A DNA stretch of 34,550 nt from Fibrobacterota bacterium (GCA_003164335.1 PLTF01000072.1:78464-113013); one strand, 5' to 3'; positions 203-25,914 are shown, numbered from the stretch's first letter. Numbers and translations are program-made. Notes: generated by a model not told the origin, from the sequence alone.

Positions 203-415
203 TGGAAAGAAAGAAATACCAGAACCGGCAAATTAAAACCATATCAAGAGTATTATATTCCTACATGTCAAATGGCATACGTAGCGAGTCTGGATATGCG
301 AACTGCGCAAGAGAAGTCAACGTCATAAACTGTACTGGTCACGGATGCGGAGGTACCCATGGTTCGCAATATTACCTGAACCATAGCTGCGCTAATGAAG
401 CGGATGCATTATCGG
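203..415. other. non-coding stretch upstream of the intron-like domain
   Basis: I see no credible gene here. A short open frame starts near 265, but it has no recognisable domain and runs straight through the structured element at 416-487. A perfect 7-base-pair hairpin (ATGGTTC / GAACCAT) lies at about 359-384. If the domain V call is right, this stretch could be upstream intron RNA, but no reverse-transcriptase motif (such as YADD) is visible. Confidence 0.4.
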
Positions 416-487
416 GAGCCGGATGCCTTAATAGGGCAAGTCCGGTTCTGAGAGGGGGGCGGTCGGTAACGGTCGTCCCTACCTCAC
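416..487 (+). mobile_element. group II intron 3' end (domains V and VI), probable remnant
   Basis: Positions 416-448 form a 33-base hairpin with the layout of group II intron domain V. The lower stem GAGCCGGA/TCCGGTTC carries the catalytic AGC triad near its base. A small 3'-side bulge separates it from an upper stem GCC/GGC capped by an AT-rich loop. Positions 452-485 fold as a domain VI-like stem with an unpaired A at 481, and an AC dinucleotide at 486-487 would be the 3' splice end, a normal branch-point distance. Domain V is usually 34 bases with a GNRA-type loop, so this copy is one base short. No intron-encoded reverse transcriptase is visible in the preceding 415 bases, so it is either truncated, ORF-less, or has its 5' part outside the window. 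Confidence 0.6.
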
Positions 488-2481: not shown

Positions 2482-2505
2482 GGGGGGAGGGCGAATCCTC
2501 CCCCC
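2482..2505 (+). terminator. stem-loop after ilvD
   Basis: GGGGGGAGG (2482-2490) pairs perfectly with CCTCCCCCC (2497-2505) around a GCGAAT loop. An A-rich tract precedes it and A-rich rather than T-rich sequence follows, so alone it is a poor intrinsic terminator on the plus strand. It probably acts together with the next hairpin. Confidence 0.55.
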
Positions 2506-2575: not shown

Positions 2576-3931
2576 CTACAGATTATACCGAAGCTCGACA
2601 TACCATTGCCAGTCGCCATGAGTACGCATGAACTGTTCGCTGCAGTTCTGGTCCTGCGGACTGAACGTTTTGTAAATATCATGGTCATTCATGGCCATCA
2701 GCTTGAGTTCAAATTTTTGAATCGACTTGTCCAGATAAATACTCCATTTCACCTGGTTCGGATAACCATACGTACTCATATCGCCCTGATAGTCCATCGG
2801 CTCTGCGTTAAAAGTTCCGTTAGTCGCAGCATATCCGAGCCAGTCGTTCGGATAGGGGTATTTCCACCATTCAACCTCGACTGATAGAACATCCCAGGTA
2901 TATCCCGAAAGGAGCTTGCTGAAGGAGGGAACGTTGAAGCCCGCCATCATCGGCATATTCTGCAATGGCAGCCCATTCCAATAGTATGGCCTTGGAATAC
3001 TAAGATCATTAGGATAATACTGGTATGATTTCTGGCCCAATACCGCTGCTTCTCCGTAAATCTTGAAATCTTCGGATCCGCAGATTTTATCCAGACCGCC
3101 CACCAATGGCTTGGGATCAAAAATAAGCGTTGCATCTTCCTTGGTCGCCTTATAGAGCTTGTCGAGGCTATCCGGGAAAGCCTGAGCATTGCCATTCATA
3201 TCAAGAGCATGATCAAAACAGATGCCATACATCAGGCTAAGGACATCACTCGGTTTATAGGTGGCGGTAAAACCGAAGTTCCAGTCGTGCCACGGAAGGT
3301 AAATATAATCGCAGTTAGCAAGCGCTTCGATTTTAAGCTTGTCATGAAATAAACCCACCTGAGCCCGCGCTCCTTCGAGATTGGCCACCGGGTAATCCAA
3401 CTGGGTCTCAATGTATGCCGGATAAGCCTGGGTGCGGTATAAATAATTTCCAAGATCCTTGGTTTCGGCATTATTGGTATATTGGAAAAGGCCCGATTCA
3501 AGCAGGAAAGAAGAAACGGTAGAACCCAGGTTATTCCAGTGAAAAATTCCTTCAGCAGAAGGAATGTCTGCGTTATAGACCTCATAGTATGAAGATTTAT
3601 CCATTGAGCCATATTGCAGAGTCAGGAAAGTCGACATTTCCAAGGCCGTTTTCGCGGTAAACCATGGGGTCGGATTTGAAATCACTCCGATATGAGCGAA
3701 TCCATTATTCTGGCCATAATGAGATACGGCATGTCCCCCGTTATTCAGCGGTCCATCGGGATAGTAATCTCCTGCAACGAGTTGCCCGAACATTATGTAA
3801 CCAAATCCTTCCACTTGTACTATGGGCTTGGCCGTGTCTTTAACATGGATAGTATCCGTTTCGGCCAGCGCCATTGCCTGAAAACCAACAATAAGTAATC
3901 CCACTGCAATTAAAGCCTTTGCACGTTTCAT
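2576..3931 (-). CDS. predicted outer-membrane beta-barrel protein, paralog of the gene at 19912-21315
   Basis: The 451-residue product starts with a signal peptide (MKRAKALIAVGLLIVGFQAMALAE) and is rich in aromatic residues and alternating polar/hydrophobic strands. It ends in ...WYVELRYNL, a hydrophobic strand ending as expected for barrel proteins. It shares clear blocks with the protein at 19912-21315: an N-terminal GQ(I/L)V.G.Y turn, a central (R/K)(D/N)LG(E/N)YL(F/Y)R..AYP block followed by DYP, and a (K/C)(I/L)YGEA stretch. The gene lies 78 bases downstream of the GH116-like gene on the same strand and is probably co-transcribed, with a stem-loop in between. A role in uptake or anchoring of glycans or their products is inferred from this pairing. 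I do not recognise a named family, and barrel topology is predicted only by eye. Confidence 0.75.
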   Translation of the reverse strand: MKRAKALIAVGLLIVGFQAMALAETDTIHVKDTAKPIVQVEGFGYIMFGQLVAGDYYPDGPLNNGGHAVSHYGQNNGFAHIGVISNPTPWFTAKTALEMSTFLTLQYGSMDKSSYYEVYNADIPSAEGIFHWNNLGSTVSSFLLESGLFQYTNNAETKDLGNYLYRTQAYPAYIETQLDYPVANLEGARAQVGLFHDKLKIEALANCDYIYLPWHDWNFGFTATYKPSDVLSLMYGICFDHALDMNGNAQAFPDSLDKLYKATKEDATLIFDPKPLVGGLDKICGSEDFKIYGEAAVLGQKSYQYYPNDLSIPRPYYWNGLPLQNMPMMAGFNVPSFSKLLSGYTWDVLSVEVEWWKYPYPNDWLGYAATNGTFNAEPMDYQGDMSTYGYPNQVKWSIYLDKSIQKFELKLMAMNDHDIYKTFSPQDQNCSEQFMRTHGDWQWYVELRYNL

Positions 3932-3956
3932 GAAATAATCCGCTCCGGTGAATAGT

Positions 3957-3997
3957 GATTGAAAAAGAAAGGGGATTCCCCGTAAGCAGGGAATCCC
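3957..3997 (-). terminator. stem-loop with T-rich tail between GH116-like gene and OMP gene
   Basis: GGGATTCCC (3972-3980) and GGGAATCCC (3989-3997) form a perfect 9-base-pair stem with an 8-base loop. Read on the minus strand, the stem is followed by CTTTCTTTTTC. This resembles a leaky intrinsic terminator or an mRNA-stabilising stem. It would lower or separate expression of the downstream membrane protein gene relative to the enzyme gene. Confidence 0.6.
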
Positions 3998-4009
3998 GAC
4001 AAATACGAA

Positions 4010-6748
4010 CTACTTGTTTATCGATACGGTCCTCGAAACCGATTTGCCTGCAGAAGTCAATCTTAGTACCGCAACCCCGGAGCCGACCCATGAGCCCTGC
4101 GAGGTCCTGCCGTTCCAGACATAATTGTGCGATCCGGCCGAAGCGTATTCGTTCATGATGGTGCCGATCCGCGCACCGTTTACAGCGAAGAGTTCCATTT
4201 TAACCGCCCCAGACGAAGCTACAGCGAAACGAATCGGCGAGTTCGCGCCGATGATGCCGCTTACCAGCGCAAGAACATTCTGGTGCATTGCGGCTTTTAC
4301 TACACCCCTGACGCCGACTGCGCCGTTAAATACTTTAATCTGGACGCCCTGCTGAATTGTGATCGCCGGGTTGAAGGTCAGCTTGATCACCTTTTCGAGC
4401 GGGGAGGCCAGCGTGTCGGTCGTTACCGTGACCCCGGTTACCGTAGAACCGTTGATTCTGACCAGAACCCCCGGGGTGTCAACAGTAGTGTTGTTTTTCA
4501 AAATGATCTGGTTGAAAGTAAGGGCTGAATCGAACGAAACCGTCATGTTTTGATAGCAATTATCAACGGTGCTTATTTTGTCGGTGTAATTCAGCGTTCC
4601 CCATCCGTTCGGGTTGATCAAGGGGCAGTTAGTCAGAACATGCGCCATGGAATCCGCCGCCGTATCAGGAATGCTTGGCCTGATCCACAGGCGATGGTTC
4701 GCATTGTCGATAAGTGTTCCGGTCATCTGGAAATAGCCGCGCCAGACATCAGGCGCCGTCGAATAGCTGGCAAAATTATTGTTATCGGCCTCAAGATCCT
4801 GCCAGAATACATACGGCGGATTTCCAGGAAAATAGTACTGCCAATCCCAATAATTGACTAATATGCCGGTATTCGGCAATCCGCTTGAAATCGCAAAGCC
4901 GCCCCAGTGATCGTACGTGTAAAAATGCCACTTGCCAAGTCTGTCACGGATTCCGGATAAATTAGCATAATTGGCATACAATCGGGAATTGGAAGCATTA
5001 ACAATATTCGTATCGAAAATTGCCGGCAGGCAGAAATAATGAGCCCACGAGTACCCGGCGACATCGCCTTCAGAATAGTTGGACCCGGTTGCAAAATTGG
5101 AATTAAAGCATGTACTGGGGAATTGCGCCCGTGCACTATTGTAGAAGGCGGTGTATTTATTGGCTGAAGCTGTATCACCCAGCCATTGGGCCATTGCAAT
5201 CAACGCTTCCCATGCGGCAAGGGCAGTAGACGAGCAATAATTTCCATCGGGCACTCCGGTATTATCGTAAGAGCTATATGCTTGGTTCGGCAGATAGCCG
5301 CTGCCATAACCGCTAGCTGTAGTGCTCATGTATGCAAGGCGAGTTGCCGTGTTTTTAAGGCTGTCCCAGTATTCCTGCAGGGAATCCTTGTGGGCAGAGG
5401 CAAGCATCAACTCATACGCCTTGAAAATGAACATGCAGTTTAAGTCTGCCCATCCTGTGGTATTGGGCTGATACCAGTAATCGTTGTGGGTAGTATTGTG
5501 CCAGCCATCCATGAAATGATTTGAATCGCTACTATTGTAGTTCCAGGATCCCGATGCACATCCGTTGAAATCATGATGTACTTGTCCTAGCAGATTACCA
5601 CCTTCGGAAGCTACATGTGATGATGTCGCCCAAAATTTCAATTCGCGCCAGAAGATGCTCGGCCAGATGTAGTTGTACCACACCGCTGCATGCTCGGTCT
5701 GATCGATGGTACCGATAATCGGATATGCTCCCTCCCATATACCAACGCGGCCATCTTTTGCCATGACTGTGTTATGGACCATGGGGTAGAGATCGTTGAG
5801 CAGGCGATCCTTATACCAGTAGGGAAAATTGCTTGCCATTACTCGATTGACGATTGAAGTTGCTCCGGCCTCGACCTGCGCGAAATAGGGCCAGCCAAAA
5901 ACGCCTGCTGCTTTCGAGTTCGCATACCAGTTATGGTAGTAATGTTGTTCTGGACCTTTGGCGGCGTTTACCCATGGATTCCACCAGGACATGAGGAACC
6001 TAAAATGAACCGTTGCTCCAGCCGCAACATGAATTTTGTCTGCGACGAGGTTGCCCGCACCGGAGGTCAAAAAACCGGTAGTGGTAAGGAAAGCTCCCAT
6101 GGAGCCACTGGATACGGTATCGGTAACCTGATCGCTTCCAACCATCATGTAGGCATTGCCACTGTTAGTGTCGCCTGCCCACGTAATAGCATTTGCACCA
6201 TCGCTGGTGCCGATATTTGCACCGCCCATAAGATTGGTGTTGCCGGAGGTTATGTTCGAGAATTCAAGGGCTGCTGCAATATCGACGGCTCCGCTGTTCG
6301 TATTTTTTGCCGCAACATCGAAATAAGCGAGCGGCGATTGTGCGAGTTGTGCATAAAGGGGGGCATCGCCCGGAATATAGGGCCCGAATGCCGTCAGCGT
6401 GAGGTTCACGCCGCCAAGGTTCGGAAAAGTATCGTAATAGACGGGTACTTTAGCATCTTCCTTCATGGTGGAAGCTTTTTGCTTGTAGGTAATTGTCCCA
6501 TTGTTTTTTACAAAAAAATGGAATCCGCATGATGAGGATCCATAACTCGTGAACTCATTTTGTTCAACGGAAGCCGGTGGCATGACTTTCCCGACAAATG
6601 CCAGGCTTCCCGTCTGTGCATTAAAAGTGACATATCCTGTTCCCATGCCGCCGAGGGGAGTTCCCCCGGTCCCGGCATAGGCCCAAAGACTCGATGTTGC
6701 TCCCAACACCGCCAATACTCCTAAACGCAGCACGTACTTGAATAGCAT
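4010..6748 (-). CDS. secreted GH116-like glycosidase with T9SS-type C-terminal domain
   Basis: The 912-residue protein has a signal peptide (about 1-24), an N-terminal beta-sandwich-like part beginning GGTPLGGMGTGYV (28-40), an (alpha/alpha)6-type catalytic part (about 310-700) and a C-terminal part (about 815-912) ending like a sorting domain (KMELFAVNGARIG... then VLRLTSAGKSVSRTVSI). GH116 hallmarks are the GRVGIWEG segment, matching the family GRFGYLEG block and placing Glu339 at the nucleophile site. The second is YLPNQAYSSYD (485-495) followed by Y..STALAAWEA.IAMA..LG, matching the family DQTYD...LWLAALEA...MA block. The general-acid Asp falls on Ser492 in a simple alignment; Asp495 could replace it. 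Family members cleave beta-glucosides, beta-xylosides or glucosylceramides; the substrate here is unknown. Start supported by GGAGGAGG just upstream. The family call is from motifs, not from a search. Confidence 0.75.
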   Translation of the reverse strand: MLFKYVLRLGVLAVLGATSSLWAYAGTGGTPLGGMGTGYVTFNAQTGSLAFVGKVMPPASVEQNEFTSYGSSSCGFHFFVKNNGTITYKQKASTMKEDAKVPVYYDTFPNLGGVNLTLTAFGPYIPGDAPLYAQLAQSPLAYFDVAAKNTNSGAVDIAAALEFSNITSGNTNLMGGANIGTSDGANAITWAGDTNSGNAYMMVGSDQVTDTVSSGSMGAFLTTTGFLTSGAGNLVADKIHVAAGATVHFRFLMSWWNPWVNAAKGPEQHYYHNWYANSKAAGVFGWPYFAQVEAGATSIVNRVMASNFPYWYKDRLLNDLYPMVHNTVMAKDGRVGIWEGAYPIIGTIDQTEHAAVWYNYIWPSIFWRELKFWATSSHVASEGGNLLGQVHHDFNGCASGSWNYNSSDSNHFMDGWHNTTHNDYWYQPNTTGWADLNCMFIFKAYELMLASAHKDSLQEYWDSLKNTATRLAYMSTTASGYGSGYLPNQAYSSYDNTGVPDGNYCSSTALAAWEALIAMAQWLGDTASANKYTAFYNSARAQFPSTCFNSNFATGSNYSEGDVAGYSWAHYFCLPAIFDTNIVNASNSRLYANYANLSGIRDRLGKWHFYTYDHWGGFAISSGLPNTGILVNYWDWQYYFPGNPPYVFWQDLEADNNNFASYSTAPDVWRGYFQMTGTLIDNANHRLWIRPSIPDTAADSMAHVLTNCPLINPNGWGTLNYTDKISTVDNCYQNMTVSFDSALTFNQIILKNNTTVDTPGVLVRINGSTVTGVTVTTDTLASPLEKVIKLTFNPAITIQQGVQIKVFNGAVGVRGVVKAAMHQNVLALVSGIIGANSPIRFAVASSGAVKMELFAVNGARIGTIMNEYASAGSHNYVWNGRTSQGSWVGSGVAVLRLTSAGKSVSRTVSINK

Positions 6749-7255: not shown

Positions 7256-8884
7256 ATGAATAAAGCGGTAAGAAGAAAGCCCGGCATAAAAAAAGCACTT
7301 GAATTTCTCATAGACGGGATCGATTCCGGTCGCTTCGGGACATCCTTACCCTCTATCCGGCGCCTGGCGAGGAATGCCGACGTTTCATTCGTCACCATGT
7401 GGAAGGCGATAGGTCAATTAAGGGAATCAGGGGGTATCGGCCCCTTTTCCGCCGGTCGGCCGGTCATCCAGGGGGCGGCTGCAGCAGGGGACCTTTTTTC
7501 CTATGAAAAAGGAATGACCGGATCCGATGCCGATAGCGACTATCCCGGAGCACTGTGGCTCAAGCTGAAGGCGCAGATCCGCAAGGATATCCTCACCGGG
7601 AGATTCGTGCCGGGAGAGGCGTTGCCGTTTATCAAAGAGCTGCAGTACCGGTACGATGTCTCGTTCGCGACCATAAAAAAAGCGCTGGAGTCGCTCGAAA
7701 GCGACGATACGATCCGCTCCAGGGGGAAGGGATATATCGTTCCCTCACTGACCTCCGCCGACCGTAACGACCGCATCGTTGCCATCGGATGCGGATGGGA
7801 GGACGCAAAAATCTGGTCCGACCACCAGGACAAGCTCAGTTTCCGCCTGCTTGAAGCCGAGTGCATCCAGAAGAAAATCGGCCTCGACATTGCGGTATAT
7901 TTCCATCAGAACGGCAGGCTCCGCTATATTCACTCTGCCACGCGGCTGCCGTATAACCTCAGGAATGACGCGCTGCTCGGCATTGCCTATATAGTAGCCA
8001 ACCTCGAAATCGATCCGGCGGACATCCTGCGGGAACTTGTCGCCTTTGATAAGCCCATCGCGGTTCTGGATGTCGTGGGCGGGTGGAGCGTTCCCGATTC
8101 CCTGCGCCGCCACCACGCCATACGATTTTTTACGGTAACGGCATCGTTCCATCCGGCGCGGCAGATTGCCCGGTACCTGTTGAATCTCGGCCATATAAAG
8201 GTCGGTTTTTTCTCGCCGTTTCATAAGGGGGCATGGTCACAGCTCCGGCTTGAAGGGGTAACGGATATTTTCCGCGATGCCGGAATCACGGACGGGGTAA
8301 CGCCGTTTGTGCTCAACACCTATGCCTATCAATGGGAGTTCATTCACCATTCCGATAATAAGGAGGATATCCGGGCGTTTTTCGAACAGTATGAACCCGG
8401 CAAATCCCGATTGAAATTTTCAGGAAAAGGCGGCATGATAAGCTACAGCATTTCCAAGTATCTTACCGAACAGAACTGCGCCACCGGTGAAATTTATCAG
8501 AAGATGCTGCCGCTATTTACCCGGGCGCTTAGTGACCGGAACATAACCTCCTGGATATTCGCCAATGATTTCGCAGCAACGCTGGCCCTGGATTTCCTCA
8601 AAACCGCCGGTCGAAGCGTCCCGCAGGATCTCTCGGTCATCGGATTCGATAATTCGCTGGATGCCATGGAATATCAGTTGACATCGTACGATTTCAATAC
8701 CACCGGGATTATCAACGCGATGATCCGGTATATTATATCACCGTCAATATTTCCCATGCAAACCGTTATCGAAGCCGAGGGTACCATTATCGAGCGTCGC
8801 TCGACGGCACGGATCCGCGATCCGGCGGCGAACGTCGATACTGCAAAAAAAACAATGGTTGAAACCGATAAGGGGAGCGTTTGA
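7256..8884 (+). CDS. transcriptional regulator with two GntR-type HTH domains and a LacI-type sensor domain
   Basis: The 542-residue protein has a winged-helix GntR-like domain at about 8-70 (LPSIRRLARNADVSFVTMWKAI, LRESGGI) and a second at about 98-165 (LKAQIRKDILTGRFVPGEAL, YDVSFATIKKALESLE, RGKGYIV). A C-terminal part from about 170 ends with a periplasmic-binding-protein-like fold of the LacI/AraR type (ARYLLNLGHIKVGFFSP; IFANDFAATLALDFL; SVPQDLSVIGFDNS). Such sensors usually bind a sugar. Ordinary AraR-type proteins have only one GntR domain, so the doubled DNA-binding part is unusual. It is divergent from the GH116-like operon, which it probably controls in response to a glycan breakdown product. 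The ATG is preceded by AAAGGA at a usable distance. Confidence 0.8.
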   Translation: MNKAVRRKPGIKKALEFLIDGIDSGRFGTSLPSIRRLARNADVSFVTMWKAIGQLRESGGIGPFSAGRPVIQGAAAAGDLFSYEKGMTGSDADSDYPGALWLKLKAQIRKDILTGRFVPGEALPFIKELQYRYDVSFATIKKALESLESDDTIRSRGKGYIVPSLTSADRNDRIVAIGCGWEDAKIWSDHQDKLSFRLLEAECIQKKIGLDIAVYFHQNGRLRYIHSATRLPYNLRNDALLGIAYIVANLEIDPADILRELVAFDKPIAVLDVVGGWSVPDSLRRHHAIRFFTVTASFHPARQIARYLLNLGHIKVGFFSPFHKGAWSQLRLEGVTDIFRDAGITDGVTPFVLNTYAYQWEFIHHSDNKEDIRAFFEQYEPGKSRLKFSGKGGMISYSISKYLTEQNCATGEIYQKMLPLFTRALSDRNITSWIFANDFAATLALDFLKTAGRSVPQDLSVIGFDNSLDAMEYQLTSYDFNTTGIINAMIRYIISPSIFPMQTVIEAEGTIIERRSTARIRDPAANVDTAKKTMVETDKGSV

Positions 8885-16921: not shown

Positions 16922-17329
16922 ATGATGATCAGATATTGGGTTGGCGGCGCGTGTATTCTCTGTCTCTGCGCATTTGCAGTGAGTGCGGACAAAGTCAGCG
17001 CTTCAAGCCGTGCTTTTTCATTCCCTGCGTTCACGGGCGTTAAGCAGGGAACGGTCGTTGCCCATCCATCGTACTTTAAATTTTTGCAGAATTCCGCCAG
17101 CGCCCGGGTCATGACCTTCATGTGGTCGTTTCCGGCGCAATCGTCCGGGCAGAGGGGCGCAATCACCGTTTATTCGTTGCGCGGTCAGGTCATTAAATCT
17201 TTTCCATGCACTGCTCCCTCGGGCATGGTGAAATGGAATACGGCAAAGGATGGGGCTGCCGGGATTTATGTCGCCAGGCTCGTTTACGGATCGGTCAGGC
17301 AAAATATTCGGATGATGCTTTGCAATTAA
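16922..17329 (+). CDS. small secreted protein consisting mainly of a sorting-like C-terminal domain
   Basis: From ATG 16922 (GAGGGTGG just upstream) the product is 135 residues: a signal peptide (MMIRYWVGGACILCLCAFAVSA) followed by about 110 residues. The last 65 read like a T9SS-type or FlgD-Ig-like C-terminal domain: AITVYSLRGQVIKSF, a W in VKWNTAKDG, then AAGIYVARLVYG and a basic end. This matches the usual ...V.(I/L)YD..GR.V....W.G.d..G..sG.YF..l... pattern. No other domain precedes it. It lies seven bases upstream of the GH3 gene, which lacks such a domain. It could be a surface anchor or chaperone for its neighbour, or a remnant of a larger protein. The domain call rests on pattern only. 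Confidence 0.6.
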   Translation: MMIRYWVGGACILCLCAFAVSADKVSASSRAFSFPAFTGVKQGTVVAHPSYFKFLQNSASARVMTFMWSFPAQSSGQRGAITVYSLRGQVIKSFPCTAPSGMVKWNTAKDGAAGIYVARLVYGSVRQNIRMMLCN

Positions 17330-17336
17330 GGGGAGC

Positions 17337-19883
17337 GTGATGATTAAAAAGGCAATCGGGGAAATTCTCCTGGCTTCGTTACTGTTTACGGCCGGTGCGA
17401 CGAGCGTATCGAACGTCCAGGTCAGCCTGGTCAAGGGATATGCAACGGGCCTGAATAACTCGGGCGATTCCCTGTATTATTACATGGGGCGGATTACCTA
17501 TACCTTTTATGCTCAGGGAATGGATTCGGTTATTGTCGGCGTCACCATCACCAATCGGTCAACCGGGACGCCCCTTACTCTGCTGGAAGCCGGCGGGGAT
17601 GTCGGACAGGTTCAGCAGAAGAACGCCACCGATACCCTTAAAACCATCTATTTCCGCACCAAATTGGGCGGCAATTATTCAGACTCCTATTTTGCGACCG
17701 TGACGGCGAACGGCAATAAGAGCCAGATGCGGCTGCTCGCCGATTCACTGGTGAAGCAGATGACGGTGACCCAGCGGATGTCTCAGCTATTCAATGCTGC
17801 GGATAAGCAGTGGTTCGGTGCAGATGATCAGCTTTTGAGTAATGGAAAACGGGTGCTTGGCTGGGCGTGTTCCGATGGACCTAACGGCGTTCGGTGGCCC
17901 ATAGGGCCCGCCGACGATTCCGTAGGAATTTACGGAGCAGGAAATCCGGCGACGAATTTCCCCACCGAGGTCGCACTTGCCAGCACCTTCGATACCTCTT
18001 TGCTGGACAGCGTGGGCTGGGCGATCGGACGCGAAACCCGCGCAAATGACCTCTACTGCAATCTCGGCCCGATGTGCGATGTAGTCGTCAATCCCCGCTG
18101 GGGCAGGACCTTCGAGACCATGGGGGAAGATCCCATCCTTTCGGGAAAATTGGTTGTGAACAGAATTATAGGAACCCAGAGCGTGCATTGCATTTCCAGT
18201 CCGAAGCATTTTGCGCCTTACCTGATGGAACAGGATCGGCAATGCGGCATGAGAGCCGGTGCGTCGGAGGAGGCTTACCGCGAGTTGAACTGCGTTCCCT
18301 TTGAAATGGCGCTCACCCAGGGCTATGCACAGGCGATCATGACCTCCTACAACAAGGTAAAGGTTCCAGGATACACGACGACCAACCCAACGTTGCTGGC
18401 CGATTTTTGCGACATCTCCGGTGTCAATAAGCACGGTGTCAACGATATTATCAGGCACGATTGGGGATACACGGGAATTATCATGACCGATTGGAGTGCT
18501 CTCTCGTGTGTAACCGACGGGGTCTATGCATACGACACCGCTCAGCTGGATATGAGTACCCCCTACGGCGACGGCGGCTATAGCAACATAGCTACGGGCA
18601 TCGCTTCCGGAGTATATGATACCGCTCCATTGAACCAGAAAGCCGCCGATGTCGTTTATGGAAAACTATGGGCATGGGGTGGCACGTTGCTTCCCTCCGA
18701 CAGCGCCATCAATAACGTACCTCCGAATACGATTCTCTGTGCCCAGCACAAGGCCATCGCACTCAAGGCGGCGCGAGAGTCCATCGTACTTGCAAAAAAT
18801 GATACCGTTGCGGGAAGCCCCATCCTCCCCCTTGACACCAATGCAACATTCAAGATTGCGGTCGTCGGGCCGGACGCGAGTTATGGTCGGCCGGGAGGTG
18901 GAGGAAGCAGCTATGTGACTCCGGACACCATCATTTCTCCACTGGCGGGAATTAAAACGCTTCTCGCAGCGCATCCGAATATTTCGCTGGTGAGCAATTA
19001 TACTTCAGCAACCGGACCCAACGACGTAGCGGTCGTCGTCATCGGAACATTGACGGGGATAATCGGGGGAGAGAGCGAATCGGTGGACCGGCCGAATCTG
19101 CTGCTCTCCTCCAGCATGCTGGCGCTGGTTTCGAGCGTGATGAGCGTTGTTCATAAAACGGTCGTTGTTTATACCGGCGGAAGCCCCTCGGACTCCGGAA
19201 GCTGGTCGGATGCCCCGGCCGTGGTTATTGAACTCTTCGGGGGAAGGTCCCAAGGCCAGGCACTTGCCGAAATCCTCTTCGGTATAACCAATCCAAGCGG
19301 CCATCTGAGCCTTACCTGGCCATTGTCTGAAAACGATCTCCCGAACAATCGGAATTTTGGATCGAATCTTAACACTTCGACACTCGAATTCGATGAACTG
19401 TCGGCCGATTCGGCTTACGGGTACTTCTATTTCGAGAAAACCGGCAAGACTCCGCTCTTCTGGTTCGGACACGGGCTCAGCTATACGACCTTTAGTTTTA
19501 ACAGCATTGAACCGTTAGGCCCGGCCACCATAACTGCCGGAGACCGAATCGACCTTGCGGTTAACCTCAGCAATACCGGCACGCGGACCGGAGACGCCGT
19601 GGTCCAGCTTTATGTGCGGCCGACCAGCCTCACGATTCCGCATAGAGTCAAGGATCTCCGGGGGTTCCAGCGCGCGACCCTCACTCCGGGCCAGTCCTCG
19701 ACGCTCACCTTTACGCTTGGTCCCCGGGATTTTTCCACCTACTATGCCGATTCGGCGCATCGGACCGGACAGTGGCAGGTCAACCCCGGAACCTACGATA
19801 TCATCGCCGGCTCGACCTCCAATCCAGCGGAGTTAGTAAACGGCAATGGTAAATGTGTTATAACGTCAATAACGGTACAATAA
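17337..19883 (+). CDS. secreted GH3 beta-glucosidase-like enzyme
   Basis: The 848-residue protein has a short signal peptide (1-21), a beta-rich N-terminal extension (about 25-128) not usual in GH3, and a catalytic TIM barrel (about 130-450). The barrel carries DGPNGVR (180-186), NPRWGRTFETMGEDP (252-266) and KHF (290-292). The nucleophile is Asp385 in IIMTDWSAL. An alpha/beta sandwich domain follows (about 480-710), in which GESESVDRPNL (578-588) places Glu581 or Glu579 at the general-acid position. An Fn3-like domain (about 740-830) closes it. Both catalytic sites look intact. The family cleaves terminal beta-glucose or beta-xylose units. No T9SS-like domain is present at its C terminus. 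The gene sits between the orphan sorting-domain protein and the second outer-membrane protein, and is probably co-transcribed with both. Confidence 0.9.
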   Translation: MMIKKAIGEILLASLLFTAGATSVSNVQVSLVKGYATGLNNSGDSLYYYMGRITYTFYAQGMDSVIVGVTITNRSTGTPLTLLEAGGDVGQVQQKNATDTLKTIYFRTKLGGNYSDSYFATVTANGNKSQMRLLADSLVKQMTVTQRMSQLFNAADKQWFGADDQLLSNGKRVLGWACSDGPNGVRWPIGPADDSVGIYGAGNPATNFPTEVALASTFDTSLLDSVGWAIGRETRANDLYCNLGPMCDVVVNPRWGRTFETMGEDPILSGKLVVNRIIGTQSVHCISSPKHFAPYLMEQDRQCGMRAGASEEAYRELNCVPFEMALTQGYAQAIMTSYNKVKVPGYTTTNPTLLADFCDISGVNKHGVNDIIRHDWGYTGIIMTDWSALSCVTDGVYAYDTAQLDMSTPYGDGGYSNIATGIASGVYDTAPLNQKAADVVYGKLWAWGGTLLPSDSAINNVPPNTILCAQHKAIALKAARESIVLAKNDTVAGSPILPLDTNATFKIAVVGPDASYGRPGGGGSSYVTPDTIISPLAGIKTLLAAHPNISLVSNYTSATGPNDVAVVVIGTLTGIIGGESESVDRPNLLLSSSMLALVSSVMSVVHKTVVVYTGGSPSDSGSWSDAPAVVIELFGGRSQGQALAEILFGITNPSGHLSLTWPLSENDLPNNRNFGSNLNTSTLEFDELSADSAYGYFYFEKTGKTPLFWFGHGLSYTTFSFNSIEPLGPATITAGDRIDLAVNLSNTGTRTGDAVVQLYVRPTSLTIPHRVKDLRGFQRATLTPGQSSTLTFTLGPRDFSTYYADSAHRTGQWQVNPGTYDIIAGSTSNPAELVNGNGKCVITSITVQ

Positions 19884-19911: not shown

Positions 19912-21315
19912 ATGAAGTTTCGGGCGATGGCGGTAGGTCTGGGTGCGGCTATTGCATTATTGTATTGTCCAGGCGTTATCGGGGGCGGAACCGATGACAT
20001 TGTTTTCACACCTATCGGCGATGCCTATCTGCAGGTCGGTCAGATTGTAAATGGTTATTATCAGTCGAAGGGTTCATCGATTTTTCAAATATACCATATG
20101 TGGCAGCAGCAGGCTTATGCGCATGTCGGATACGATGCACTGATAAATAAAAAGCTCGACATCAATATCAGCGTCGGCGGGACGATGGAATACTCAGACC
20201 CCCAGGTTTTAGCGGACCCTGCCACGTTGAAAACGGACCAGACATTTTTAATCAATTCCGCCTATGCCAGCTATCCGCTCATCCAGGATTCCCGGCTATT
20301 CTCCCTTACGTTGCAGGGCGGATATTTTCCCTATAAATACAACCCCGATGTCCGTAACCTCGGCGAATACCTTTTCAGGGCGAATGCCTACCCCATGCTG
20401 GTTTACAGCACGTTCGATTACCCGCTGGTTCGTATTCTCGGCGCAAGGATCGGGATGCAGGCGCTGGATTCGACGATTACCAATGATGTCATCCTTCATA
20501 GCGAAGTGCTCGGCGTTCCGGTTCAGGACTGGTCGATTGCCGACATTTTCAATGTTCGCCTGTTCAAGATGCTTACTATCGGCGGTGGAATTGATTTAAC
20601 CCATTTATTATCGGTATATCCGGGTCCCTACAACAGCTCATTAAACGATGTCTGGTACGATTTTTATTATGATGTCAATTCTAAAAACGATAAGAATTTG
20701 ATTTTAAGAGATATTACCACGAATGCCGACGGCACAAAAGATACGACCTGGGCCGATACGCTCAACTGGAGATCGGTAAAATTGATGGGCAGATTCAGTT
20801 TCGATCCTAAAAAGGCCTTGACGAAATTATTCGATGGAGCTTTTTTCGGCAGGGATGATTGCAAGCTTTACGGAGAGGCAGATATTATCGGCGTTGAAAA
20901 TTACCCCAGCTCTAACCCTGATTTAGCCGAACTGTATAATCGTAACATGCGAACCATCTACTCGTTCGGCTTTAACTTCCCGACCTTTGGGATCCTGGAT
21001 GTTGTTAATATGGAGTTGGAATACAACGCCGACACCACGAGCGCTTTTTCGGATTACAATATAGTGAACGCTACAGATGGACCCGTATTAAGTCCCCTCC
21101 TCCTGCCGGCCGGTACCGTAAGAAATCCCTGGCGATGGTCAATCTATGTGAAAAAATCGGTGTGTAACAATCATGTCAGTTTTATCGCGCAGGCCGCCAG
21201 GGACCATACCAAGATCAATTTTAACTATTGGGATCCAACGTATATGTCCCTGGGGGAGGCGCTGCCTACAACCCGGAACTGGTGTTGGGATTTCAAGACC
21301 GAGGTCAGGTTTTAA
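19912..21315 (+). CDS. predicted outer-membrane beta-barrel protein, paralog of the gene at 2576-3931
   Basis: The ATG at 19912 follows GGGAGG closely and gives 467 residues with a signal peptide (MKFRAMAVGLGAAIALLYCPGVIGG). An upstream in-frame ATG at 19885 would add nine residues before it and is not favoured. The mature part has the alternating pattern and aromatic girdle of a barrel and ends in WDFKTEVRF, with the terminal Phe expected for the BAM signal. Shared blocks with the first paralog include VGQIVNGYY, RNLGEYLFRANAYP, DYPL and KLYGEAD, plus a WRWSIYVKKS-like penultimate strand. Both genes lie immediately downstream of a glycosidase gene (here by 28 bases), so it probably helps import or retain the sugars released. 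No named family is recognised. Confidence 0.75.
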   Translation: MKFRAMAVGLGAAIALLYCPGVIGGGTDDIVFTPIGDAYLQVGQIVNGYYQSKGSSIFQIYHMWQQQAYAHVGYDALINKKLDINISVGGTMEYSDPQVLADPATLKTDQTFLINSAYASYPLIQDSRLFSLTLQGGYFPYKYNPDVRNLGEYLFRANAYPMLVYSTFDYPLVRILGARIGMQALDSTITNDVILHSEVLGVPVQDWSIADIFNVRLFKMLTIGGGIDLTHLLSVYPGPYNSSLNDVWYDFYYDVNSKNDKNLILRDITTNADGTKDTTWADTLNWRSVKLMGRFSFDPKKALTKLFDGAFFGRDDCKLYGEADIIGVENYPSSNPDLAELYNRNMRTIYSFGFNFPTFGILDVVNMELEYNADTTSAFSDYNIVNATDGPVLSPLLLPAGTVRNPWRWSIYVKKSVCNNHVSFIAQAARDHTKINFNYWDPTYMSLGEALPTTRNWCWDFKTEVRF

Positions 21316-21363: not shown

Positions 21364-22815
21364 ATGTTTTTCCAAAGCTGCGTGCGGTTTTTTCTTCTTC
21401 TGCCCACGCTGTTTATTTTCTTTTGTACCGCCGGCGCTCCGGTTAATTCCATACCCTCCAAGCCGTTGACCGCTCCTGCCCTTGCATCGCCGGCTGATGG
21501 CGCAACGGGTCAGAATACAACGTTGAAGCTTGTCTGGGATAGTGTGACCGCAGCAACGATGTACGATGTGGAGGTTTCGTCGAACAGCGCTTTTTCGAGC
21601 GTAACCGTTGCCGATTCGATGATAAAGGGCGATTCGGCAACTGTCGGTGCTCTTTCTGCAAGTACAACCTATTACTGGCGGGTGCAGGCCAGGAACAGCG
21701 CCTCCATCGGCGTGTGGTCAGGCGCATGGCATTTTGCCACTGCGGCCGTGACGGCACCGATCCTTGTTTCACCGGCTAACGGCGCAAACAGTCAGCCGGC
21801 AACTCTTTCCGTAAGCTGGGAAGGGGTGACAAGTGCAGCATCATACAGCATCCTTCTATCGACGGTATCCAACTTTGCATCGACGGTCGTCGGCCTGACG
21901 GGTGTCACGGGGACAGCAGCTTCGGTCAGCGATCTCGCAATTTTCACCACCTACTATTGGGAAGTAAACGCCACCAATACCGACAGTACGAGCGCATGGT
22001 CCGGCGCATGGCATTTCACCGTCGGGGGGACCAAAGTTCTCTCCATGGTGCAAATTCCCGGAGGCACATTCCGGATGGGATCAACGGACACTGATTTTTC
22101 CGACGAACAGCCGGTTCATCCTGTTACGGTTTCCACTTTTTATATAGACACGACTGATGTAACACAGGCTGATTACCAGGCTCTCATGGGAGTGAATCCA
22201 TCCTATTTTACCGGGGTTCCGCAGAGACCGGTCGAGCAGGTCACCTGGTTCGATGCGGTTCTCTACTGCAATGCCCGGAGCAGGCGTGATGGGTACGATA
22301 CGGTCTATTCGTACAGTTCCATTACCGGGGCGCCGGGCAACGGATGCTCCAATCTTGGCAATTTAACGATGGACTTTACCCACCATGGTTACCGGCTGCC
22401 GACCGAGGCCGAGTGGGAGTATGCATGCCGTGCCGGAACAGCTACCGACTATTACTGGGGCGGGAGTTACCCCCCGCTCATTGCCTCCGACACATCGACA
22501 ATAGATGCCGATGCAGTCTGGTGGCATAATTCGCCTGACAGTACCCAACCGGTAGCGAGCAAACTCCCGAATGCCTGGGGACTATACGATATGGCGGGGA
22601 ACGTCTGGCAGTGGTGCAATGACTGGTACGGCAGCTACAGCAGCAGCGCCCAGTCGGACCCGACGGGACCATCCAGCGGTACTTACCGGGTCATGCGCGG
22701 GGGATCGTGGGCCAATTACGATTACAACCTGCGCTCTGCAGACCGGTATGTAAGCGGCTACGCCATTCCGGGAGGCTGGAACGGCGATAATGGGTTCCGC
22801 TGCGTCAGGCGGTAG
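21364..22815 (+). CDS. secreted protein with two Fn3-like repeats and an FGE/SUMF1-like domain
   Basis: The 483-residue product has an N-terminal signal segment (about 1-25; a Cys at 21 could be lipidated but the lipobox is poor). Two Fn3-like repeats follow at about 36-126 and 130-220, each ending VWSGAWHF or AWSGAWHF. The FGE-sulfatase-type fold spans about 226-483 (MVQIPGGTFRMGSTD, YRLPTEAEWEYACRAGT, WGLYDMAGNVWQWCNDWYG, YRVMRGGSW, GFRCVRR). The cysteine pair that true formylglycine-generating enzymes carry after RGGS is absent: the segment reads RGGSWANYDYNLRSADR (445-461). A non-catalytic, ligand-binding or structural role is therefore more likely. It lies 48 bases after the outer-membrane protein gene and probably belongs to the same operon. 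Confidence 0.85.
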   Translation: MFFQSCVRFFLLLPTLFIFFCTAGAPVNSIPSKPLTAPALASPADGATGQNTTLKLVWDSVTAATMYDVEVSSNSAFSSVTVADSMIKGDSATVGALSASTTYYWRVQARNSASIGVWSGAWHFATAAVTAPILVSPANGANSQPATLSVSWEGVTSAASYSILLSTVSNFASTVVGLTGVTGTAASVSDLAIFTTYYWEVNATNTDSTSAWSGAWHFTVGGTKVLSMVQIPGGTFRMGSTDTDFSDEQPVHPVTVSTFYIDTTDVTQADYQALMGVNPSYFTGVPQRPVEQVTWFDAVLYCNARSRRDGYDTVYSYSSITGAPGNGCSNLGNLTMDFTHHGYRLPTEAEWEYACRAGTATDYYWGGSYPPLIASDTSTIDADAVWWHNSPDSTQPVASKLPNAWGLYDMAGNVWQWCNDWYGSYSSSAQSDPTGPSSGTYRVMRGGSWANYDYNLRSADRYVSGYAIPGGWNGDNGFRCVRR

Positions 22816-23172: not shown

Positions 23173-25914
23173 ATGGAATTTCTTAAAAAAATGGGGATTT
23201 GCGCCGGAATGCTCATGCTTGCCTGCAATGCCATGGTATTTGCCGATTTTGTAACGGCTACCCTTACCATGGGGACCGGCCCTAAGGCAATCGCGGTAAA
23301 TCCGGTAACCAATGAAATGTATGTCGCGAACAAAGGGAGCGGCACCGTTACCGTCATCGGAGGGTCAAACGATTCGACCGCAACCTTGACAGTAGGATCG
23401 GGGCCCTGTGCCGTTGCCGTAAACCCGGTTACCGGCATTATCTACGTGGCGGACAGCGCCGGCAATAATGTCACGGTAATCAATGGAGCGACCAATTCAT
23501 CCCTTACGGTAAATACCGGAACGGCCCCGGTGGCACTTGCGGTAAATCCGGTGACCGATATGATTTATGTGGCAAACAGGGGCAGCGGTACCGTAACGGC
23601 CATAAACGGAGCGACCAATACGACATCCTCAATATCTGTGGGGACCAATCCCGTCGCGCTCGCGGTGAATCCGGTGACCAATATGGTTTATGTGGCAAAT
23701 TACGGCAGCGCTAATGTGACCTCCATTAATGGATCCACCAACGCTTCGGCAAACATTGCTGCCGGGACGAATCCCATTGCCCTCGCGGTAAATCCGGTGA
23801 CCGACATGATTTATGCGGCGAATTACGGCAGCAAAAATGTAACGGTCATAAACGGTACGACCAACACCGTTGCCACTACGGTAACTGCAGGAACCAATCC
23901 CTGTGCAATCGCCGTGAACCCGGTAAGCGATGTCATATTCGTCGCCAATTACGGGAGTGGAACGGTTACGGCGATCAGCGGGACGAATAATACCAGCACC
24001 ACGTCCATTGGCGTCGGGACCAATCCTTTTGCCATTGGCGTGAACGCCATGACCGATAAAATTTATGTTGCCGATTACGGAAGTGCCGCCGTGACGGTAA
24101 TTACCTGGGCAACCAGTTCAACTGCTACCGTTAATGTCGGGAGCAATCCCGATGCCATTGCAGTAGACCCGGTGACCGATAAGATTTATGCGGCAAATTA
24201 CGGGGGCGGCACGGTCACGGTTATCGATGGCTCGACCAATGCTGCGGCAACCGGACCTGCCGGGTCTTCGCCTTACGCAATAGCGGTAAATCCGGTGACC
24301 AACATGATTTATGTGGCAAATAACGGCGGCAGCAATGTCACTGCAATCAATGGGGCGACTGATTCGTCCACGGCCATAGCAGCGGGCTCCGAGCCCTGGG
24401 CGATTGCCGTGAACCCGGTATCCGATAAAATCTACGTCGCGAATTACGGCGGCAATAATGTTTCAGTCATTAACGGGGCAGCCAATACAGCGGCGACCGT
24501 TAACGTGGGGACGAATCCCGCAGCCATTGCGGTGAATCCGGCAAGCAATACGATCTATGTCGCCAATGAAGGAAGCAATACCGTCACGGTTTTGAACGGA
24601 ACGACCAATGCAACGAACTCCATCGGTGTCGGATCGGGTCCATTGGCGATTGCGATAAATCCCGTGACCAATATGATTTATACGGCAAACAACGGCGGCG
24701 GCAATGTTACGGCTATCAATGGGGCAAACGGTTCAACTGCGACTATCACTGCAGGATCGGGTCCGCGGGCTATTGCGGTTAACCCGGTAACCAACATGAT
24801 TTATGTGGCGAATCAAAACGGCAATTCGGTTACCGTGATTAATGGAGCATCGAGTGCAACTACAACCATAAACGCAGGAAGCGCCCCTTTTGCACTAGCG
24901 GTTAATCCGGTCACCAACAGAATTTATGTGGCAAATTACGGCGGCAGCAGTATCACGGTAATCAATGGAGCAAATAATGCAACCACGACCGTCAGTGCCG
25001 GGTCGAACCCCGACGCCGTCGCAGTGAATCCGGTGACCAACAAGATATATATCGCAAACTATAACAGCGGCAATGTTACCATCATCGACGGTATCTCCAA
25101 TGCTACGACCACAGCGACCGCGGGATCGAGTCCCTTTGCCGTTGCGGTGAACCCGGTAACCGGAACCGCCTACGCGGGAAACCAACTTGATAATGATGTG
25201 ACCGTGATAACCGAATCGCCGGTAGCCGATACAAAAATATGGGCGATCAACGATTCGCCGGCAGGTCACCTCAGTTACAGCGCAACGCCGGTTTTAAGCG
25301 GCAAAGGGGTCAACAGGGCCTTCAGCGGCCAGAGCGGTATCGAGGGAGTATATACCAGGGTCAACACCTGCCAATCGGCCTGGAATATGGCCACCATTAC
25401 ATCGGGAGCCGGCAGCGATTCCGTGCGCTGGAGCGTTAATTGGGGAACCGATTCACTGATTTATGGGGAAAACTTCCTTTGCATGTTTGCCGCCGATTCC
25501 CAGTGTGCAACGATCAACAGTCTCGGTCGGGGTACTCCGCTGACCGGGAATGTCATGGTTTATCCGCTCTATCGCGTTAATTCGGGAGTGGCGGTTGCGC
25601 GGGAGCCTGCGTTGCAAAATCATTCGGGATTTGCCCTGACCGGTGTGTATCCCAACCCATTCAGGGACCGGTTGGAGGTGGAATTTACCGTTCCGGGGCT
25701 CTCTGAATCCGCAATGAGCAATGTTGCCATCGCTATTTATGATATGAGCGGAAGGCTGGTACACCGGATCGCCGGCGGCGCCTATGCGCAAGGGCATTAT
25801 CGCATAGCGTGGGATGCCGGCGGCAGTTCGGGATTGCTGAGCTCCAATGTATACCTTTTGCAAATGAAAGCGGATAACTTCGAAAAGAAAGTAACGCTGC
25901 TCAGGGTACGGTGA
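23173..25914 (+). CDS. secreted YVTN-repeat beta-propeller protein with T9SS-type sorting domain
   Basis: The 913-residue protein has a signal peptide (MEFLKKMGICAGMLMLACNAMVFA). About 16 repeats of roughly 41 residues (31-683) follow, with the core P.AIAVNPVTN.IYVAN.GS..VTVI.G..N. A region of about 140 residues containing two Trp-rich strands comes next. The C-terminal domain (about 825-913) starts GVYPNPFRDRLEVEF and continues IAIYDMSGRLV...W.A....GLLSSNVYLLQM...KKVTLLRVR. That last part is a textbook T9SS type A-like sorting domain, so the protein is probably delivered to the cell surface. YVTN propellers occur in surface-layer and adhesion proteins; the ligand is unknown. The ATG is preceded by AAAGGAAG. 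Confidence 0.88.
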   Translation: MEFLKKMGICAGMLMLACNAMVFADFVTATLTMGTGPKAIAVNPVTNEMYVANKGSGTVTVIGGSNDSTATLTVGSGPCAVAVNPVTGIIYVADSAGNNVTVINGATNSSLTVNTGTAPVALAVNPVTDMIYVANRGSGTVTAINGATNTTSSISVGTNPVALAVNPVTNMVYVANYGSANVTSINGSTNASANIAAGTNPIALAVNPVTDMIYAANYGSKNVTVINGTTNTVATTVTAGTNPCAIAVNPVSDVIFVANYGSGTVTAISGTNNTSTTSIGVGTNPFAIGVNAMTDKIYVADYGSAAVTVITWATSSTATVNVGSNPDAIAVDPVTDKIYAANYGGGTVTVIDGSTNAAATGPAGSSPYAIAVNPVTNMIYVANNGGSNVTAINGATDSSTAIAAGSEPWAIAVNPVSDKIYVANYGGNNVSVINGAANTAATVNVGTNPAAIAVNPASNTIYVANEGSNTVTVLNGTTNATNSIGVGSGPLAIAINPVTNMIYTANNGGGNVTAINGANGSTATITAGSGPRAIAVNPVTNMIYVANQNGNSVTVINGASSATTTINAGSAPFALAVNPVTNRIYVANYGGSSITVINGANNATTTVSAGSNPDAVAVNPVTNKIYIANYNSGNVTIIDGISNATTTATAGSSPFAVAVNPVTGTAYAGNQLDNDVTVITESPVADTKIWAINDSPAGHLSYSATPVLSGKGVNRAFSGQSGIEGVYTRVNTCQSAWNMATITSGAGSDSVRWSVNWGTDSLIYGENFLCMFAADSQCATINSLGRGTPLTGNVMVYPLYRVNSGVAVAREPALQNHSGFALTGVYPNPFRDRLEVEFTVPGLSESAMSNVAIAIYDMSGRLVHRIAGGAYAQGHYRIAWDAGGSSGLLSSNVYLLQMKADNFEKKVTLLRVR
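23263..25221 (+). repeat. 16 coding tandem repeats of about 123 bases
   Basis: The propeller repeats are visible at DNA level. Phrases such as GTAAATCCGGTGACC, AATATGATTTATGTGGCAAA and TACGGCAGC recur with few changes along the tract, at a period close to 123 bases (41 codons). The tract is favourable to unequal recombination, so repeat number may vary between strains, and short-read assembly could be unreliable here. Confidence 0.85.

Follow-up and report, generated by a model that had tools for sequence, protein, structure and literature searches.

Why would two unrelated glycosidase genes each be followed by the gene for one of two related outer membrane proteins (OMPs)? This question was raised by a 34,550-nucleotide stretch of DNA from a Fibrobacterota bacterium (GCA_003164335.1 PLTF01000072.1:78464-113013), which is referred to, at its full length, as the window. 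The two OMP genes, designated OMP A and OMP B, are located directly downstream of a glycoside hydrolase (GH) gene of the GH116-like and GH3 type, respectively, and the open reading frame (ORF) coordinates, strands, and neighbors were as first given in the initial annotation, which was made from the sequence alone (Table 1). That annotation proposed that the OMPs are portable partners for glycan capture or uptake, with a logic similar to that of SusC/SusD in Bacteroidota but with a different protein. The results presented here indicated that OMP A and OMP B are probably enzyme-coupled, Fibrobacterota-specific sugar porins with 16 predicted strands. Each is encoded in an operon-like arrangement together with a secreted enzyme that cleaves glycans and is probably tuned to the product of that enzyme.

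Predicted porin fold of OMP A and OMP B

Sequence comparison (23% identity, E value of 2e-20) showed that the two OMPs are homologous and are true paralogs. As the initial annotation had stated, neither could be given a family name: no Pfam or NCBIfam family matched OMP A or OMP B, a PDB sequence search yielded no match for OMP A or for a profile of the family, and a Pfam scan of 92 family members yielded just two weak, unrelated matches. Membership in a named family was rejected because these scans and searches returned nothing relevant.

AlphaFold2 models were generated from input alignments of 92 and 64 rows. Both models were 16-stranded barrels like those of solved porins, with a predicted local distance difference test (pLDDT) score of 85 and a predicted template modeling (pTM) score of 0.85 for OMP A, and scores of 86.8 and 0.84 for OMP B; structure prediction thus supported the barrels with confidence. 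In Foldseek searches of the PDB, the matches listed for either model included OmpM1, OmpF/OmpC-type porins, a Rhodobacter-type porin, chitoporin, and Occ channels, and those listed for OMP A also included OprB. The best match of both models was OmpM1 (TM scores to target of 0.64 to 0.66, 11 to 12% identity), and no TonB receptor or FadL/PorV-type barrel was among the 50 matches listed per search. With regard to glycan capture, the predicted fold is more suggestive of a channel than of a binding protein.

In classical 16-stranded porins, constriction loop L3 is located at the connection between strands beta5 and beta6. No other loop in the family was as conserved as the beta5-beta6 loop (31 residues, mean of 2.66 bits), which has the consensus F-P-Y-K-Y-N-P-D-x-R-N-L-G-E-Y-L-F-R-S-G-T-Y-P. 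In the GH116-linked clade, LGNY replaced LGEY in this loop.

Distribution of the porin family

The genome that contains the window carries eight members of the porin family. When about 85,000 genomes were scanned with one conserved peptide pattern, 78 loci were identified and assigned to Fibrobacterota; carriers outside the phylum with a degenerate motif would escape such a single-pattern scan. The family is apparently restricted to Fibrobacterota, in which it was found in 30 of 168 genomes, representing 16 of 41 genera, and the highest copy numbers were 43 (genome G001) and 48 (genome G156).

Porin genes adjoin genes for carbohydrate enzymes

The glycosidase identities assigned initially held up in Pfam scans, with a DUF608/GH116 match that exceeded the Pfam cut-off (E value of 4e-12) and GH3 N- and C-domain matches with E values of 2e-29 and 2e-38. 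The gap between the enzyme and porin genes is 78 bp in the GH116/OMP A module and 28 bp in the GH3/OMP B module, and the OMP B start codon (ATG) is preceded by a ribosome-binding-like site, GGGAGG.

All eight porin genes in this genome are located in glycan-enzyme clusters. The partners were GH116, GH3, GH2 (two porins in tandem), GH31 (in the order GH31-porin-GH31), and GH27; another porin has GH43 downstream and GH2 genes beyond, and the last is accompanied by a beta-helix protein and GH29 in a fucose cluster with a major facilitator superfamily (MFS) carrier and FucU. Across 108 distinct blocks, the flanking gene was co-directional with the porin gene in 75 of 102 cases upstream and 79 of 103 cases downstream, with median gaps of 71 bp and 33 bp, respectively.

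Pfam scans of the neighbors identified mostly carbohydrate-related domains. The 70 upstream genes included 3-keto-disaccharide hydrolase (12), GH3 (5), GH20, GH31, GH2, and GH116 (4 each), and GH27 (2), and the 73 downstream genes included ThuA (12), GH43 (7), and GH29 (4). At least 35 of the 70 upstream neighbors had a GH or 3-keto-disaccharide hydrolase domain, compared to one GH among the 25 families listed for 104 control genes, which came from other regions of Fibrobacterota genomes, picked regardless of what they encode. The upstream enrichment had a P value of about 3e-17, even at an assumed base rate of 10%, and the enrichment of homologs beside carbohydrate-active enzyme genes that was expected from the initial annotation was thereby found.

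A coverage-filtered classifier indicated that 71 of the 108 blocks directly adjoined a carbohydrate-related enzyme, which was a classical GH in 48 of the 108. Enzymes were found at offset -1 in 47/90 cases, at +1 in 36/100, at -2 in 10/76, at +2 in 0/69, and in 1/154 controls; these counts favor adjacency because the reference enzymes were taken from adjacent genes, and the Pfam neighbor scans are less biased. Genes were called as the longest nonoverlapping ORFs. False ORFs were possible, mostly in the control set, and comparisons were therefore restricted to ORFs of at least 200 amino acids.

Some clusters also contained genes for inner membrane transport and regulation, so that a complete uptake route is encoded. 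One (L006) has GH116, a porin, a sugar-binding protein, an ATP-binding cassette (ABC) ATPase, and a permease, and another (L051) has GH3, a porin, a GntR/LacI-type regulator, an FGGY kinase, and an SSF Na+/solute symporter. The fucose set was present in L001, as porin-GH29-MFS-FucU, and in L057.

Porins and enzymes are co-inherited

A tree of 74 porins was constructed, and 60 of them were labeled by partner enzyme (15 label states). The labels changed 20 times on the tree (minimum of 14), compared to 36 to 46 times in 1,000 shuffles; the shuffles do not correct for genome relatedness, and the figures are strong rather than exact probabilities. OMP A grouped with the GH116-linked porins L006 and L007, and OMP B grouped with the GH3-linked porins L050, L051, and L059 of other genera (SH-aLRT of 100 in both cases). 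These results did not support the idea of a portable partner, and a freely portable partner was rejected by the tree test.

The enzymes showed the same grouping. In comparisons with the window GH3, the identity was about 50% for the GH3 enzymes that belong to the OMP B module (L050, L051, and L059) and 29 to 34% for other GH3 enzymes, except for one short fragment (42%). Similarly, the GH116 enzymes that belong to the OMP A module had identities of 38 to 42%, compared to 28% for a GH116 from an unrelated module. Porin and enzyme identities within classes were correlated (Spearman coefficient of 0.78, for pairs that are not independent). By these sequence comparisons, the porin-enzyme pairs are old, co-inherited modules.

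Ordinary diffusion porins might also be encoded in sugar operons, where they would increase permeability when a sugar is available but would have no specificity, and the predicted fold is as near to that of general porins (OmpF) as to that of sugar porins. However, specialization is indicated by the number of diverged copies, which reaches 48 in one genome, by porin clades that track the enzyme class, and by a clade-specific motif in the putative constriction loop. We considered nonselective porins to be unlikely.

Sorting domains and the type IX secretion system

The window GH116 has a FlgD_ig match at residues 845 to 891 that was under the Pfam cut-off (E value of 1e-4), and residues 838 to 910 matched a sorting-domain model with an E value of 6e-17, although the set used to build the model included the tail of this GH116. 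Sorting-type tails, with types A and B counted together, were found on 22 of 143 neighbors and 1 of 155 controls. An SprA-like translocon of the type IX secretion system (T9SS) is present, and exposure at the cell surface is therefore plausible for GH116 and other enzymes with a tail.

The window GH3 lacks such a tail and is preceded by a small gene whose product is 135 amino acids long. A search of 41 genomes revealed homologs of this protein in 12. Among 15 relative loci that were inspected (including L174-L184 and L186-L188), GH3 was located immediately downstream of the small gene in 14 of 14 cases with a continuing contig, and one or two family porins followed GH3 in 8 of these 14. Por_Secre_tail was above the cut-off in one homolog and weak in others, and the window copy had no significant Pfam match; thus, the sorting-domain assignment was solid for one member and weak for the others. 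The arrangement suggests that the tail-less GH3 could be routed or anchored in trans by a stand-alone sorting-domain protein.

The best mechanistic alternative to enzyme-coupled sugar porins is that the barrels are T9SS cargo partners similar to SprF/PorP, which are also present as one barrel per cargo. Such a barrel would receive or anchor the neighboring enzyme at the surface and would not transport sugar. The pairing of each cargo gene with its own barrel and their co-inheritance correspond to the SprF pattern (PMC9143113), and the tails on the neighbors, the SprA-like translocon, and the stand-alone sorting-domain protein fit this explanation as well. However, PorP-like proteins and PorV are 14-stranded FadL-family barrels (PMC9143113), whereas OMP A and OMP B have 16 predicted strands and porin matches. 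In addition, PorP_SprF (PF11751) matched none of the porin family members in the Pfam scan, and about 85% of the neighboring enzymes lack a recognizable sorting tail. A PF11751 search of the window's own genome also yielded no match, but its control likewise matched nowhere. Because the number of strands and the fold do not fit and sorting tails are rare, a cargo partner is disfavored, and we judged it to be quite unlikely.

A surface scaffold to which the enzyme or the glycan is docked on the outer membrane, with no transport role, would agree with the description of OmpM1 as an outer membrane attachment porin and with enzyme-barrel co-inheritance, which is compatible with a physical complex, but it is very improbable given that the most conserved loop occupies the pore-eyelet position and that inner membrane sugar importers are present in the clusters.

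Proposed mechanism

No SusD_RagB match was found in the genome that contains the window, and one match each was found in 6 of the 41 genomes searched. The window's own genome has five hits to the TonB-receptor plug, of which four were examined; none of the four has a gene of the searched glycosidase classes directly next to it. The Pfam scan of the 92 porin family members revealed neither a plug nor a TonB match. Because SusD was not found and the examined plug hits do not directly adjoin such glycosidases, we propose that enzyme-coupled sugar porins are used. Selective binding and passage of a sugar are predicted from gene context and co-inheritance, and we infer transport, channel activity, co-transcription, and the site of enzyme action.

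The enzyme would act either in the periplasm or, if it has a sorting domain as GH116 does, at the cell surface. The cognate porin would admit the matching oligo- or monosaccharide across the outer membrane via facilitated diffusion, and passage would occur via the conserved, aromatic- and charge-rich loop, a putative constriction loop. Inner membrane ABC, symporter, or MFS carriers would finish uptake, which local sugar-sensing regulators would control.

Several points weigh against this proposal. The fold similarity was moderate (TM scores to target of about 0.4 to 0.66), sequence similarity to known porins was undetectable, and strand order is the only basis for the view that the conserved loop folds inward. 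About one-third of the blocks have no recognized carbohydrate enzyme adjoining the porin, and in one branch of the phylum, the porins are paired mostly with proteins of less certain function, namely, sugar dehydrogenases, ThuA, and 3-keto-disaccharide hydrolase. A few porin subclades adjoin other genes, namely, a beta-propeller plus a ResB-like gene or a downstream S-adenosylmethionine synthetase gene, and a hairpin separates GH116 from OMP A.

In the branch with 3-keto-disaccharide hydrolase, ThuA, and dehydrogenase partners (L053, L074, L076, L078, L019, L048, and similar loci), the porins were in tandem or single, and the dehydrogenases were of the glucose/sorbosone type; this set of partners suggests a 3-keto-sugar route. 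In the subclade with L037, L042, and L058, the neighbors were a YNCE-like beta-propeller gene and a ResB-like gene instead of a glycosidase gene, and the arrangement was conserved. In L070 and L073, the porin gene is located between 3-keto-disaccharide hydrolase and S-adenosylmethionine synthetase genes, an arrangement conserved in two genomes.

Other features of the window

Table 1. Coordinates of the two modules and associated features in the window
Feature	Coordinates	Strand	Evidence and remarks
Terminator-like hairpin 3' of OMP A	2482..2505	-	Consensus scan only
OMP A	2576..3931	-	Predicted 16-stranded porin (AlphaFold2), GH116 partner; Foldseek porin matches; groups with GH116-linked L006, L007
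Hairpin (11 bp) plus T-rich tail in the GH116/OMP A gap	3972..3997	-	Consensus scan only
GH116-family glycosidase	4010..6748	-	Pfam DUF608; signal peptide-like N terminus; C-terminal FlgD_ig/T9SS-like sorting domain
GntR-type regulator, divergent, with LacI-like sugar-sensing domain	7256..8884	+	GntR (2 stretches), Peripla_BP_3
Small secreted protein (135 amino acids), mainly a stand-alone T9SS/FlgD-like sorting domain	16922..17329	+	Homologs precede GH3
GH3 glycosidase without C-terminal sorting domain	17337..19883	+	Pfam Glyco_hydro_3, _3_C, Fn3-like
OMP B	19912..21315	+	Predicted 16-stranded porin (AlphaFold2), GH3 partner; Foldseek porin matches; groups with GH3-linked porins
FGE-sulfatase (SUMF1-like) protein with two fn3 domains	21364..22815	+	Pfam; 48 bp past OMP B, same strand

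The hairpin between GH116 and OMP A is possibly a partial terminator or attenuator and may result in different expression levels of the enzyme and the porin, and the hairpin 3' of OMP A is likely the end of the GH116/OMP A operon. Homologs of the GntR-type regulator adjoin the GH3-porin modules in L050, L051, and L059. It is uncertain whether the FGE-sulfatase protein is a member of the GH3/OMP B module. A sequence cluster that includes this secreted protein recurred near porin modules (L002, L003, L005, L013, L029, L056, L061, and L080), and it may be inflated by common fn3 domains.

Three further features were observed. Positions 414 to 487 (+ strand) matched an Rfam group II intron domain (44 bits; gathering threshold of 40), the ORF just downstream (617 to 2452) was ilvD-like as judged by eye, and positions 23173 to 25914 encode a beta-propeller protein of the lactonase/NHL type, which is repetitive and ends in a FlgD_ig/Por_Secre-type tail.

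Comparison with known systems

The means by which sugars cross the outer membrane in Fibrobacterota is unsettled. Proteomics of Fibrobacter succinogenes revealed no MalA-like oligosaccharide receptor, and TonB-dependent uptake was merely hypothesized (PMC6851124); TonB-dependent transporters were also invoked in an analysis of genomes across the phylum (PMC4704652). Enzyme-coupled porins would be a concrete, testable answer for environmental lineages, and the family could serve as a marker gene to find glycan-use loci and predict substrates in uncultured genomes. Sugar porins encoded in sugar operons are already known. The literature searched yielded no description of a large, unnamed porin family in which each enzyme has a porin of its own and which apparently stands in for SusCD.

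OmpM1 of Veillonella parvula resembles the family as the top Foldseek match, but it is an attachment porin of low sequence identity and is not known to be linked to glycan enzymes. PorP/SprF of the Bacteroidota T9SS share one barrel per secreted partner, adjacent genes, and co-inheritance; the family differs in having 16 rather than 14 strands, no PF11751 match, and partners that mostly lack a sorting domain. LamB, ScrY, the chitoporin ChiP, and OprB share the porin fold, the linkage to sugar genes, and the proposed facilitated diffusion through a constriction loop. Unlike these proteins, the family is massively expanded in its lineage and is paired directly with a secreted enzyme, and no solved porin is detectably similar to it in sequence.

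SusC/SusD loci of Bacteroidota are similar in that dozens of outer membrane paralogs are each located beside their own glycan enzymes and local regulators. In contrast, the porins are about 450 amino acids long with 16 strands, no TonB plug, no SusD partner, and no sign of energy coupling. The central part of the initial annotation is supported: barrels are predicted, carbohydrate enzymes are strongly enriched next to the porin genes, a different protein follows a SusCD-like logic, and no existing family name applies. We tentatively extend this logic to a full porin counterpart of SusCD, in which a genome would have dozens of enzyme-specific porins, each co-inherited with a glycosidase, and GH3 modules would add a third gene, for a stand-alone sorting domain that may route the tail-less GH3 to the surface in trans. 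If true, enzyme-coupled porins would solve the same problem as SusCD in a second, independent way.

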